From a virus: DNA of 43,445 nt. The notes under the pieces are model-generated. The model saw nothing but the letters and a program-made list of their open reading frames with translations. It was not told the origin of the DNA and did no database searches. The position numbers and the translations under genes were made by a program. The number at the start of each line of letters is the position of its first letter. The stretch's first letter is position 1. This document shows positions 9,340 through 15,603 of this stretch, one piece after another. The DNA lies in the IMG/VR virus record IMGVR_UViG_3300033144_008466, positions 1 to 43,445 of that record, one strand, 5' to 3'.

Positions 9340-9771
9340 TTACTTCTTGGAAGCTTTTTTCAATTCCTTTATTTGAGTCTGGAGGTCTTTGATAAGCTCT
9401 GCCTGTTCTTTCTGATTTTCTATTGCTGTTTCAAGATCAATTGCCTGTTCTTTCAATTCCTTTTCTTGAGCAGTAATAGTTTTATCATTTTTGGCAAGTG
9501 TTTCATTTTGGGCTTTTACTACACGCTGAGCTTTGTTCAACCTGGCATTTTTCTCTTTGGCTTTATTGGCCAATTTCTTTTCTTCAGCAGTAATACTTTC
9601 TGTCTTTACTACATCAAGATTCATTTTCTGATGAGCCAGAGCAGCTTTGTTTTGAAAATATTTGTCAAGACCTTTTTCTTCAACAGTATTATAACCAGGG
9701 AAAAGCCTTAAATTTTGCATCCCTACTGCTTTCAAAACAATTACTGCTTTTGTCTTATTATTTATAATCAT
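9340..9771 (-). CDS. Coiled-coil structural protein, function unknown
   Basis: A 143-residue protein with a short N-terminal beta domain (IINNKTKAVIVLKAVG, LFPGYNTVEEKGLD) and a long Lys/Glu/Gln-rich coiled coil from about residue 55 to the end. Similar N-terminal domains with 'LxPGxNxV' occur in genes next to major capsid genes of several phages, but no defined role is known to me. ATG 9771 has AGGAG 8 bases upstream; a TTG 6 bases earlier would be too close to it. Confidence 0.65.
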   Translation of the reverse strand: MIINNKTKAVIVLKAVGMQNLRLFPGYNTVEEKGLDKYFQNKAALAHQKMNLDVVKTESITAEEKKLANKAKEKNARLNKAQRVVKAQNETLAKNDKTITAQEKELKEQAIDLETAIENQKEQAELIKDLQTQIKELKKASKK

Positions 9772-9806
9772 GTACAATACTCCTTTTCAGTTTATAAGAT
9801 AAAATT

Positions 9807-9830
9807 AAATGGGCCATTTCTGACCCATTT
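9807..9830 (-). terminator. Rho-independent-type terminator after major capsid gene
   Basis: On the minus strand the sequence just downstream of the capsid stop forms AAATGGG...CCCATTT with a 10-base loop and is followed by a T-rich stretch (AATTTTAT). The stem is only 7 pairs, so it may attenuate and not fully stop transcription, allowing higher capsid than connector expression. Confidence 0.6.
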
Positions 9831-9833
9831 TAT

Positions 9834-10757
9834 TTAGATACCATCAGCATATCTGGCAGAACCAGGATACCGGAACTCAATCCCGCTGAGTTTGAACTCT
9901 CCAGGAACTTCAAAACCTCTGCCTTTTCTCTGTGGCTCGGTAAAGCGAAGAGGCATTGGAATATGAAATACCACCTTGTCCATATCCTTATCATAGGCCA
10001 TCATTCGATCAGTCGCACCACCCCCAGCACCAGCGAGCTCAGTAACAGGAATAATATCAGCATCTGAGGAAAGAAAAGGACTATTGGCAATTAACCAGGC
10101 CAAAAGAGTAGTATCGCTGTTATCACTTCTGGGAGTACCAGCAAGATAATTCCATTGGGCAGTAGGCAGAAGTAAAGTAGTTGGCTTCTCAACCTGAAGA
10201 GTATCAACGAAAATATCTCCCATGAAATCATTGATATCAAATAGAATCTGATTGGGAGTTTTGTTCACCCATTCAGTCCCACTACCAGGGTTCACTACAG
10301 TAGCAGAAGTAACATTGGTATTGTTAATAAAGCCAGGCAAATTATGAGTAGTATCTCCAAGCATAGCTACTCTTTGGGCAAGTTCTTCATATGCCCTTCT
10401 GGCAGTATTTGATTTTAATTGTGGAAGTGCACGCTTCAGCTGAATAGCCTGACGAAGTTCTTCATCAGAATATTCATAACCAGTAGCGCCAAGTTCTACA
10501 GGCACAGTAATTTTTTCAGTTCCAATTTCAGCAATAGGAACATTCAAAGATTTTGTACCAACAAACTCCGCTACTGCTCTTCCATCCATAAAGAAATAAG
10601 TTACAGATTCAGCCCATTCACCTGCTTCATTCGATACAGGAATGATCAGTGGATAGGTTATTGCTTTATACTTCTTCTCATACATTTTACTTTCAATGTG
10701 TGTTAATTGAGAAAGAAGAAAAGCCAGCCCAGTTGCTGCGTCATATAAAAACTTCAT
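9834..10757 (-). CDS. Major capsid protein (DUF2184 family)
   Basis: The 307-residue protein carries the DUF2184 capsid pattern: LTHIESKMYEKKYKAITYPL, then WAESVTYFFMDGRAVAEF, ITVPVELGATGYEYSDEELRQA, QRVAMLGD, LLPTAQWNYL, and a C-terminal PMPLRFTEPQRKGRGFEVPG. These map to the HK97-fold E-loop, spine helix and P/A-domains. A good AAGGAG site precedes ATG 10757. It follows the structural cement gene and is followed by a terminator-like hairpin. Confidence 0.92.
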   Translation of the reverse strand: MKFLYDAATGLAFLLSQLTHIESKMYEKKYKAITYPLIIPVSNEAGEWAESVTYFFMDGRAVAEFVGTKSLNVPIAEIGTEKITVPVELGATGYEYSDEELRQAIQLKRALPQLKSNTARRAYEELAQRVAMLGDTTHNLPGFINNTNVTSATVVNPGSGTEWVNKTPNQILFDINDFMGDIFVDTLQVEKPTTLLLPTAQWNYLAGTPRSDNSDTTLLAWLIANSPFLSSDADIIPVTELAGAGGGATDRMMAYDKDMDKVVFHIPMPLRFTEPQRKGRGFEVPGEFKLSGIEFRYPGSARYADGI

Positions 10758-11938: not shown

Positions 11939-12481
11939 TTAATCTTCCAGATTGAGTTGATCTTTCATATACTTTTCTCTGGCAGATTCACGAGTGATCT
12001 TGTTGCCCTCTTTATCCTTGATAAAATCACCTTCCAATTTTTTCAAAGAGTCATTTGCTTTTACGGTTTTTTTAATTGCCATATCATAAGCAGCATTGAT
12101 ATAGTCTTTGGACTTTCCATCCAATTCCATATCCGGCAGAATATGGTCAATCACCGCAGTCTTAATTTCCTGCGGACAATCAGTACATTCAGGCATCTTA
12201 TCACCCAAGATGGCTTTAGCCTGAACCAGCAAGGCAGCACGTTCAGAAATAAGGTCAGATAAATCAGAATCAGACATTTTCTCTTTTTCCAAAGCATCCT
12301 TCTTTGCTTCGGCTTCATCTTTTTCTTTTTTCATCTTCTCTTTTTCTTCTTCTTCCTCAGTTAACTTTTTCTTGAGCCCTTCTACTTCAGCATCATGCGC
12401 TTTTTGCTGATTTTGAAGAGCCTGCCCCAGTTGAACATCCTCAACTTTATACTGGATGCCGTCAATTGTAATTGTGAACAT
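11939..12481 (-). CDS. Nested scaffold protein from internal start
   Basis: Met211 of the protease-scaffold ORF (ATG at 12481, MFTITIDGIQYKVEDVQLGQ) has AAAAAGGAG ending 6 bases upstream, stronger than the site of many genes here. In-frame initiation would yield a 180-residue scaffold lacking the protease domain, in the manner of lambda C/Nu3. The boundary falls exactly between the protease domain and the coiled coil, which supports a functional nested gene. Confidence 0.72.
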   Translation of the reverse strand: MFTITIDGIQYKVEDVQLGQALQNQQKAHDAEVEGLKKKLTEEEEEKEKMKKEKDEAEAKKDALEKEKMSDSDLSDLISERAALLVQAKAILGDKMPECTDCPQEIKTAVIDHILPDMELDGKSKDYINAAYDMAIKKTVKANDSLKKLEGDFIKDKEGNKITRESAREKYMKDQLNLED

Positions 12482-13111
12482 AGATGACTCCTTTTTATTA
12501 TGATCCATGGTTAATTTACAAGCAGACCCACACCGACCTGCATCAACTATTGCCAAATGGTTTGCCTTAATATCAGTTTGAATAAATTCATAATCAACTC
12601 CATCAAAAGTTCCTTTTTCTTCTTTCAGGTTATTAGAATATCCAACAGATACTTCAACTTTGCCTTCTTGAATTTTTTTAATTTGATCTTTATCAGTTAT
12701 GGTTGTAACACCAGATAATACTTCATCAATTCTTATTACTTCTGAGACCTGACCTTTTTGAAGCTTTTTAACATTATCAATTGTAACAATTTCAGTAGGG
12801 TGATCATCTGTAACAATTAAATTTACAAAGCTCTTTATACTATCTGGATGGAATACTTCTTTAGCTGGGCGCATCACCCCAATCTTTTCCATCAGCCTAT
12901 CTTTCAAACCCAGCTCATATCCCATATACTGCTGAACACCTGTACGAGCTAATATAACGGGTGCCGTTAAAAAGCCTGTAACCTTATCTATTATAGCCTT
13001 AAAAGTTTGACTATCATCGAATAAGAGTGCTTTATCAGCTGATTTTAAGATTGGTAAAGCTTCTTCTTTAGAAAGTCCATACTGTTTCATTATGTCTTCT
13101 ATTTTCATCAT
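11939..13111 (-). CDS. Prohead protease (DUF2213) fused to scaffold
   Basis: The N-terminal ~205 residues match DUF2213: ILARTGVQQYMGYELG, RPAKEVFHPDSI, VTDDHPTEIVT (His104), VEVSVGYSN (Ser155) and NHLAIVDAGRCG (His185), giving a Ser-His-type maturation protease. Residues 211-390 form a Lys/Glu-rich coiled coil (EEEEEKEKMKKEKDEAEAKK) expected of a scaffold. The start ATG 13111 overlaps a TGA that would terminate an extended form of the MuF gene. An internal ribosome site and ATG (12481) can produce the scaffold alone. Confidence 0.85.
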   Translation of the reverse strand: MMKIEDIMKQYGLSKEEALPILKSADKALLFDDSQTFKAIIDKVTGFLTAPVILARTGVQQYMGYELGLKDRLMEKIGVMRPAKEVFHPDSIKSFVNLIVTDDHPTEIVTIDNVKKLQKGQVSEVIRIDEVLSGVTTITDKDQIKKIQEGKVEVSVGYSNNLKEEKGTFDGVDYEFIQTDIKANHLAIVDAGRCGSACKLTMDHNKKESSMFTITIDGIQYKVEDVQLGQALQNQQKAHDAEVEGLKKKLTEEEEEKEKMKKEKDEAEAKKDALEKEKMSDSDLSDLISERAALLVQAKAILGDKMPECTDCPQEIKTAVIDHILPDMELDGKSKDYINAAYDMAIKKTVKANDSLKKLEGDFIKDKEGNKITRESAREKYMKDQLNLED

Positions 13112-13137
13112 TGAACCTCAATGATAGGTGAATAAGT

Positions 13138-14079
13138 TCACCTACAGTTTATGTCGGTTATTCCAGGTTGTATAAATTTACTACAACTTTTTGACCAAGC
13201 TCCTTTAGCTATAACAAATTCAATCCCATCCAATTCATCATGACACTTTCTGACTCTTTCATCTTTAGATGTTCTGAATATGCCTTTTTTAATTCCAAGG
13301 CTTTCACTTCTTCTTAAAGTAATTTGAGAATTAATTGTTTGAACTTCATTTCTTGCTATGGTCTTTATCCGGTTGGCTAATTTACTATTGGCTCCAGTTT
13401 TAGCAATTATCTCTTTTTCAATAGTTGTGTATTTTGCTCCGCTTACTACTCCATTATTGACTATTGTCTCCACCTGTTTTAAATACTCTTCTGGCAAAGA
13501 CTTTATCAAACTTACATTTTTATTTATGCTCAATGCAGTAAAATCTTCCAGCCCTTCTGAAGTAATTATACTACCAAGGTCAACTCCTGTAGCTCTGGCA
13601 ACTGTTCTATCAAATTTATTTTTATTAGCAAGACCAACTTTTTCAACCATTTGAGAAGCTGCTACTTGAGCAAAACTTATAGTAGCATTACCAGTAAATA
13701 AGCCATTTAGCCTTCTAAAAATAACACCAAGTTGATCACCAATTCCATCTCTTGTTCTAAAGTATTTTATTTTTTTCTGGGAGTCTTTTAACAGCTCATC
13801 AGTATATTCAGAATATTCATCCCATAGTTCATATTCCCCATCCATATTAAAACTATCAGATATGAATTTTAATTTACTTTCAGTAATAGTAGTAATCAAT
13901 CCATCAACTACATATGAAGATTGGTTGACCTTTAAATAGGCAAGTACTTCTTTTCTAATGGCTATGATTAAAGTCTTGCCCAATTTGTTAAGCTGTTTCC
14001 TGTATCTTATTTCAATGCCCTTTTGACTCTTTACTGGAGCAGCTATTTTTGTTTTTTTATTTTTTTTCTTTTTTGGCAT
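13138..14079 (-). CDS. Phage head morphogenesis protein, MuF/SPP1 gp7-like
   Basis: The protein has a Lys-rich N-terminus, a helical middle, and a C-terminal MuF domain with IARNEVQTINSQITLRRSES, FRTSKDERVRKCHDELDG and PGITDINCR. It is a minor head protein packaged near the portal. The ORF stops at TGA (13138-13140) exactly where the family normally continues INCRC; the next codons read TYSPIIEVQ and end at a TGA overlapping the protease start. The visible 313-residue product thus lacks the last conserved Cys and about 9 residues (see findings). Confidence 0.82.
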   Translation of the reverse strand: MPKKKKNKKTKIAAPVKSQKGIEIRYRKQLNKLGKTLIIAIRKEVLAYLKVNQSSYVVDGLITTITESKLKFISDSFNMDGEYELWDEYSEYTDELLKDSQKKIKYFRTRDGIGDQLGVIFRRLNGLFTGNATISFAQVAASQMVEKVGLANKNKFDRTVARATGVDLGSIITSEGLEDFTALSINKNVSLIKSLPEEYLKQVETIVNNGVVSGAKYTTIEKEIIAKTGANSKLANRIKTIARNEVQTINSQITLRRSESLGIKKGIFRTSKDERVRKCHDELDGIEFVIAKGAWSKSCSKFIQPGITDINCR

Positions 14080-15603
14080 TTATTTTTCATACTTCTCTTT
14101 GTCATGCCCATTTGAGCCATGGCAGGATTGACAATACCACTTTACTTGAAGTGGCTTAGAATAGTCTTTATGATGAGCCTGTAATTTTTTTTCTTTTTTA
14201 CAACCATCACATTTAATTGGTTTTGTTATTACTCCCTGCCTCAATGCTGAATTTAAAGCATTTTGTGCACGAACTTGACTTGGAGTCCCAATCCTTGATT
14301 CTTTTGAGTCCTCTATTTTTCCCTCAAATGAAAGCTCCTCAGCTTCCTTTTCAGTTTCTACTCTATTCTCATCAATGGAGACATAAGTACCTTGTTCAGC
14401 CAACTCAGCCAGAACATCACTACTTTCAATTATATCCTGATCAAGATATATTTGATCTCTTTGAGCATTTTGATAATCAACAGTGGCTTGCTCGATTTCT
14501 GTAAGCTGTTTTAAAGGCTTAAACTCATATTCAAATGGCTCATCAAAATTAGAGGATGCTAAAATAATACTATCCATCCAATCAATTACTGGTCTCAAAT
14601 CATTCTCTTGAAGAGATTGAACAAAATCATAATAATTTAACATATCTGCTTCACCAGTAGCATTTTGACCAGCTGGAGATATACCAAGCAATCTTGTTAC
14701 TGGTATATTAGACGCACCCGAAACCTTCTGTATAAAGCGGTCATCTATTTGAGGAAGTTGATTAAAAGTATTTGCTTTTTTATCATATTCATCTTCTTTA
14801 TCAAGGGCAATTCCATTTATAATACTCTTCATTTCATGAGCTAATTTTAACCGCTTTACTACAAGCTCATCTCTTCCTTCAGCTACCAGAGCATTCAAGC
14901 CATTTATTCGATACACATCTATATTGGATTCATAAATCAAATTATTAATAGATTGAGATACTATTTGACTGTCTGATATGGGCTCAAATAAATTAGTGAA
15001 AATTGAATTGCCCCAATAGTTCTGCTGTTCCAATTCCATTATAGTGGATAGTGCTCCATCAAGTTTATATAATCGGCTATGATGGATTTTTTGACCATTT
15101 CTTGATACAGTGTAGTATTCAGGCTTACCAAAATTAATTGATAATATATTTCTGTTTATTTCAGCTGGATATATATTATATCTATCCAAAACAATAAAGT
15201 TTTTCAATGAATCTGGTCTTATGCTTTCTACAACCAATGGCTCTTCTGGGTCATCCCCTTCTATAATAGCAAGTATTACTGCCCCACCAAATACTCTTGC
15301 CCATTTTGAAGCCAAATTTACTTTGCCTTTTACACCAAACTCTTTTAATGCTTCTTCAATTTCTTTTTTCTTATCAGCATCAGGAATAAGTAAATTGCGC
15401 CATTTGCGAGTAGCATCATCAATAGGTATATCTACAACCTTAGCAGCCAACCAATTATATACATAAAGATTATTAGCAGTGACCTGGGTTATTCTCACCC
15501 CCATTTCATATAAAACATTATTTCTTGGGTCTTTAGAAGTGCCAAGCCCTTTCATGATGTTCTTAAAGCCATCTTTAATAAAAGCAGTAATTGGATTTGT
15601 CAT
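14080..15603 (-). CDS. Portal protein (DUF1073) with C-terminal HNH-like zinc module
   Basis: Residues 1-430 match the DUF1073 portal family: YNWLAAKVVDIPIDDATRKW near the N-terminus, WARVFGGAVILAIIEG, HHSRLYKLDG, and SGASNIPVTRLLGISPAGQNATGE. It forms the dodecameric ring at the capsid vertex. Residues ~462-500 carry CDGC-x7-LQAHHKDYSKPLQVKW-YCQSCHGSNGH, a treble-clef/HNH-like zinc finger usually found in separate phage proteins. Portal proteins of this family do not normally carry it. The family is sometimes labelled Acb1-like in databases, but nothing here supports a phosphodiesterase function. Confidence 0.88.
   Translation of the reverse strand: MTNPITAFIKDGFKNIMKGLGTSKDPRNNVLYEMGVRITQVTANNLYVYNWLAAKVVDIPIDDATRKWRNLLIPDADKKKEIEEALKEFGVKGKVNLASKWARVFGGAVILAIIEGDDPEEPLVVESIRPDSLKNFIVLDRYNIYPAEINRNILSINFGKPEYYTVSRNGQKIHHSRLYKLDGALSTIMELEQQNYWGNSIFTNLFEPISDSQIVSQSINNLIYESNIDVYRINGLNALVAEGRDELVVKRLKLAHEMKSIINGIALDKEDEYDKKANTFNQLPQIDDRFIQKVSGASNIPVTRLLGISPAGQNATGEADMLNYYDFVQSLQENDLRPVIDWMDSIILASSNFDEPFEYEFKPLKQLTEIEQATVDYQNAQRDQIYLDQDIIESSDVLAELAEQGTYVSIDENRVETEKEAEELSFEGKIEDSKESRIGTPSQVRAQNALNSALRQGVITKPIKCDGCKKEKKLQAHHKDYSKPLQVKWYCQSCHGSNGHDKEKYEK

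Follow-up and report, generated by a model that had tools for sequence, protein, structure and literature searches.

What does it mean when a stop codon lies where the relatives of a protein carry an invariant cysteine? The question is raised by a gene on the minus strand of a viral DNA of 43,445 nucleotides—the whole stretch analysed here, called the window below—which is an IMG/VR virus record in its own right. As called, the gene (14079..13138) encodes 313 amino acids ending in GITDINCR, followed by TGA. Its product is a Phage_Mu_F (MuF) protein (PF04233, E=4.6e-14, residues 201-316), scoring 53.6 bits against a curated cut-off of 29.6 and covering positions 1-111 of the 112 in the profile. 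The MuF family consists of minor head proteins, of which SPP1 gp7, for example, binds the portal and is present at one or two copies per capsid (PMC5576092). With SPP1 gp7 and the rest of its family the present gene shares both sequence and a position beside the portal gene (PMC5576092): a portal gene (PF06381) lies on one side and a DUF2213 gene (11939..13111, minus strand; PF09979, E=1.6e-44) on the other. It differs from its Phage_Mu_F relatives at the second cysteine of an NCRC motif, where they have Cys and it has UGA.

Translation past this UGA (codon 314; 13138..13140, minus strand) yields the C-terminal extension TYSPIIEVQ (13111..13137, minus strand) and then a TGA (13108..13110, minus strand), which overlaps the DUF2213 start codon (13111..13109) in an ATGA junction. 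The extended frame (13108..14079, minus strand) spans 323 amino acids, with residue 314 a candidate selenocysteine (Sec). The original prediction, which had singled out the UGA, the tail and the junction, was correct in all of these coordinates, and the tail and its overlap with the next ATG are confirmed by the translation. It had left two accounts of the codon side by side, a Cys codon mutated to TGA and a UGA that is read through or recoded, and it is between these and several further possibilities that the following evidence has to decide.

An in-frame UGA at an invariant cysteine

Ten close relatives were found in IMG/VR, and about thirty loci were gathered by profile. An alignment of 31 rows, when UGA is taken as Cys, shows no variation at residue 314, at H280, at C312 or in the run TDINCRC, which confirms INCRC as the family motif. 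Two of the homologs, L001 and L002 (76 and 73% protein identity to the window MuF), also have TGA at codon 314, and in both it is followed by TYSPVIEVQ and a further TGA; all other homologs have TGT or TGC at this codon. The UGA-containing MuF genes thus number three, on three separate contigs, which speaks against a one-off mutation or a misread base. The tail TYSPIIEVQ aligns with the tails of the Cys homologs, so that homology runs on beyond the UGA. A sister phage whose protein ends at INCR with unrelated sequence behind it, named beforehand as possible counterevidence, was not found.

A search for the TDINCR-TGA pattern through all IMG/VR contigs and 84,980 GTDB genomes returned no further UGA MuF; upstream of the remaining matches the frame stays open for no more than 55 codons and does not look like MuF in any of them. 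Broader patterns in the same two collections added no UGA MuF either, and a search for HPNCR-TGA, directed at other MuF subfamilies, gave two matches, neither of them within a MuF frame.

The phage does not read UGA as sense throughout its genome. TAA closes 42 of its 52 listed genes, TGA eight and TAG two, and among the eight TGA genes MuF is the only one with a conserved translated tail behind the codon; in the remaining seven, TGA serves as the stop. Genome-wide reassignment of UGA (code 4 or 25) is excluded because the MuF TGA alone precedes a tail conserved across relatives. In a structure model of the MuF protein (mean pLDDT 82), residues 315-322 are placed in the final beta strand of the C-terminal sheet, and a stop at the UGA would therefore remove part of the predicted fold. 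Solved structures offered no match for MuF, by sequence or by fold.

The conserved block and its two hairpins

Among the three UGA phages, no other 36-nt window of the MuF gene is as conserved as the last 36 nt of the extended frame, which run from AGG-TGA to its stop: 3 sites vary here, where a window has 13 variable sites on average. The same 36 nt vary at 11 to 21 sites in the mixed and Cys trios tested, and there they are not the most conserved window. Two of the three changes in the UGA phages are synonymous and the third exchanges I and V at residue 319; the base concerned pairs, within a hairpin, with the last base of codon Cys312, and both change together (the pair is U-A in the window and C-G in L001 and L002).

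This first hairpin, hairpin A (GUAGGUGAA-CUUA-UUCACCUAU; 13124..13145, minus strand), contains the UGA in its 5' arm. Its inner part, AGGTGAA-CTTA-TTCACCT (13143..13126), had been pointed out in the original prediction and is real. Across the window, L001, L002 and L003, hairpin A shows one double-sided change (U-A / C-G) and one U-A / U-G. Its core is also found in the Cys homologs L003, L023 and L028, which have AGG for Arg and TCA-CCT for Ser-Pro, so that hairpin A is partly coding-driven. As a candidate for a bacterial selenocysteine insertion element (SECIS) it is less telling than the structure that directly follows it.

Hairpin B (AUCAUUG-AGGUU-CAAUGAU; 13107..13125, minus strand), absent from the original prediction, lies immediately 3' of hairpin A. 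It has 7 bp and a 5-nt loop, AGGUU, with the AGGU beginning 19 nt after the UGA; the loop is likewise AGGUU in L002 and is AGGUG in L001. Bacterial SECIS elements are described as stem-loops with a small, G-rich apical loop placed 16-37 nt after the UGA, and hairpin B conforms to the sequence, size and spacing rules of this published model (PMC13188914). The model also has an energy rule (-7.5 kcal/mol or lower), to which the folded region conforms—A and B jointly reach -14.4 kcal/mol, with a shuffle z of -2.3—and hairpin B alone, at -6.7 kcal/mol, does not. By the model rules, equally stable hairpins follow 0.6-0.7% of the TGA triplets in the window. The best SECIS candidate at the UGA is hairpin B, not the hairpin noted first.

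Comparison with synonymous sequences points the same way. When the same peptide is resampled synonymously, hairpin B gives p=0.003 in the window, 0.0017 in L001 and 0.004 in L002, three values that are not independent, as the UGA block of these sequences may have been shared by recombination; for the whole two-hairpin region against synonymous recodings, the corresponding values are 0.014, 0.008 and 0.002. The SECIS element of E. coli fdhF has a bulged U, and a bulge of this kind is missing from hairpin B. Nearly all Cys homologs lack hairpin B. The clear exception is L003, a Cys homolog with a C-terminal extension, which carries an AGGU loop on a 6-bp stem, as far from codon 314 as in the window (p=0.00015); L033 has only a weak hairpin (-3.4 kcal/mol, p=0.1). 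The L003 hairpin looks like a SECIS-like remnant, of the sort that some bacterial Sec-to-Cys reversions retain (PMC1794560). Strict column-by-column covariation of hairpin B with L003 is not a valid comparison, as L003 re-forms the hairpin in another register, with a loop of 4 rather than 5.

The position of hairpin B invites the main rival explanation, namely that the UGA is a true stop of a truncated MuF and that the hairpins serve translational coupling by hiding the ribosome-binding site and start codon of DUF2213. Hairpin B does enclose both signals, the GAGG of the ribosome-binding site at its loop and the ATG in its 3' arm, and only 26 nt separate the UGA from that ATG. However, in L001 the insertion of a small ORF has moved the DUF2213 gene about 240 nt downstream, where it retains the same GAGGTGCAATGATG but without the 5' arm, while an intact hairpin stays behind at the UGA. 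In L003 no start codon lies near the hairpin resembling hairpin B, and such a hairpin is absent from the Cys phages L009, L010 and L004, whose gene junction is the same. Nor would coupling account for a stop in place of the invariant Cys or for the survival of the tail peptide, and we regard it as unlikely.

Read-through without selenium is another conceivable use of the same arrangement, with the UGA read at a low level by tRNA-Trp or another near-cognate tRNA, the 3' structure acting as stimulus and a minor extended form as product. Some phages, such as phage Q-beta, make use of UGA read-through, which can be stimulated by a stem-loop on the 3' side of the stop. Here, though, the codon stands at an invariant Cys, and what lies beyond it is the ordinary end of the domain rather than an addition. 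Trp in place of an invariant Cys makes little sense, whereas exchange between Sec and Cys is the usual pattern, and hairpin B carries the specific loop and spacing of a SECIS; this makes low-level read-through decidedly improbable. Selenocysteine is the best explanation, and on the comparative evidence the UGA is probably a Sec codon, at which Sec would be inserted by the SelB and tRNA-Sec of the host.

No known RNA family matched at the UGA site. The sole match in the window lies elsewhere, at 9716-9832 (minus strand), just behind the gene at 9834-10757, and scores 21.1 bits against the Rfam ribosomal S15 leader, below the gathering score of 39.5 (E=1); it is probably due to chance.

Scattered distribution of the UGA block

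Trees of MuF, built without codon 314 and the tail, do not bring the UGA members together. L001 is instead sister to L008, a Cys homolog (97/88 in the protein tree, 100/100 in the DNA tree), and an AU test rejects a single UGA clade (p=0.0003). The pattern recurs at the level of genomes: the closest whole genome to the window is G004, which carries the Cys locus L010 and mostly shares 85-90% identity per protein, and the UGA genome G002, at about 73% identity per protein, is further away. Cys and UGA have thus switched among close relatives. Either Sec and SECIS were ancestral and reverted to Cys several times, or a short block was moved by recombination; under both, independent nonsense mutation at one codon is unlikely.

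A simple mutation of Cys to TGA, one of the two accounts initially offered, fits poorly with the recurrence of one codon and tail in three phages whose MuF backbones differ, with the conservation of the block in the UGA phages and with a SECIS-type hairpin that tracks the UGA. The broader version of this idea, in which independent nonsense mutations or assembly errors have left a degenerate gene, has in its favor that TGA is one base away from TGT or TGC. Against it, the UGA is found in three contigs with the rest of the frame intact, and in the UGA phages no part of the gene is better conserved than the tail and hairpins. Among the explanations considered, this is the least probable.

Mobility of the locus suggests a further possibility, that the 3' end of MuF received a short recombining DNA or RNA element, such as a site for homing or packaging, which brought the TGA with it incidentally. 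The locus is indeed a hot spot. In L007 (2965-4740) an intein-looking insert of roughly 330 residues, beginning CFPGESELN and ending ...AMSN before CRC, lies between N311 and C312, exactly between IN and CRC and beside the codon that the window has as UGA, and has no Pfam name; in L001 (1105-1360) a small ORF sits between MuF and DUF2213 with the GAGGTGCAATGAT junction on both flanks, as if inserted with a duplication. The UGA block is moreover near-identical on different backbones. It is, however, no insertion: it aligns codon for codon with the Cys homologs and encodes the same peptide, and an inserted element is a very improbable source of the UGA.

A candidate virion selenoprotein

Selenocysteine formed part of the second account initially offered, and it gains support from the same codon and tail in three phages, from the conservation of the block and from a SECIS-type hairpin that tracks the UGA. 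The phage mRNA would be translated in a selenium-using bacterial host, where SelB, loaded with Sec-tRNA(Sec), would bind hairpin B downstream of the UGA and deliver Sec at codon 314; the ribosome would then terminate at the TGA overlapping the DUF2213 start. The predicted product is a MuF protein of 323 residues with Cys-Arg-Sec where relatives have Cys-Arg-Cys. The window locus, like L001 and L002, probably encodes a phage selenoprotein of the virion, in which Sec replaces the second Cys of NCRC, and whose UGA-plus-SECIS block of approximately 40 nt would have been gained and lost, or exchanged, among close relatives that depend on their hosts for Sec. Neither the window nor eight related contigs contain a tRNA-Sec, and the window contains no selB; the contigs tested thus offer no Sec machinery, and a host that decodes Sec would have to supply it. 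Searches of GTDB genomes for that host by MuF profile, window DNA and terminase gave no informative match.

The arrangement resembles that of known bacterial selenoproteins, for instance the formate dehydrogenases of E. coli, in having a UGA at a Cys position, a stem-loop with a G-rich loop 16-37 nt after it, and exchange of Cys and Sec in close relatives. It differs in that the gene encodes a phage head protein rather than a metabolic redox enzyme, in that the phage contigs carry no Sec machinery, and in that the SECIS candidate overlaps the stop codon and the start of the next gene. Among viruses, the glutathione peroxidases of the poxviruses molluscum contagiosum and fowlpox are likewise virus-encoded selenoproteins that use host Sec machinery (PMC8310308). 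Those, however, are captured host enzymes of eukaryotic viruses with eukaryotic SECIS elements, whereas MuF is the phage's own structural protein. We found no phage-encoded selenoprotein in the open-access literature searched, and a 2026 review of the prokaryotic selenoproteome makes no mention of phages or viruses (PMC13188914).

If the Sec reading is true, virion assembly in this phage is linked to the selenium status of the host cell. What NCRC does in MuF would also become open to experiment, since Sec is as a rule retained only at sites with a chemical or metal-binding role; the invariant residues H280, C312 and C314 point to a possible site for metal or redox chemistry. In practical terms, gene finders cut such genes off at the UGA.

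Other features of the protein and its neighbor may be recorded here. L006 and L009 have lost both C279 and C299 (at about 13241 and 13181 of the window), with Ser and Ala in their place; this joint loss suggests a cysteine pair distinct from C312 and residue 314. L003 (2989-4263), L006 (2974-4554) and L019 have MuF proteins with long C-terminal extensions past NCRC, a layout shared with MuF polymorphic toxins; Pfam recognised no domain in the extensions of L003 and L006. The C-terminus of the portal protein (14083-14300, minus strand) has an extra CxxC...HH...CxxC stretch, zinc-finger or HNH-like, outside its Pfam portal match.
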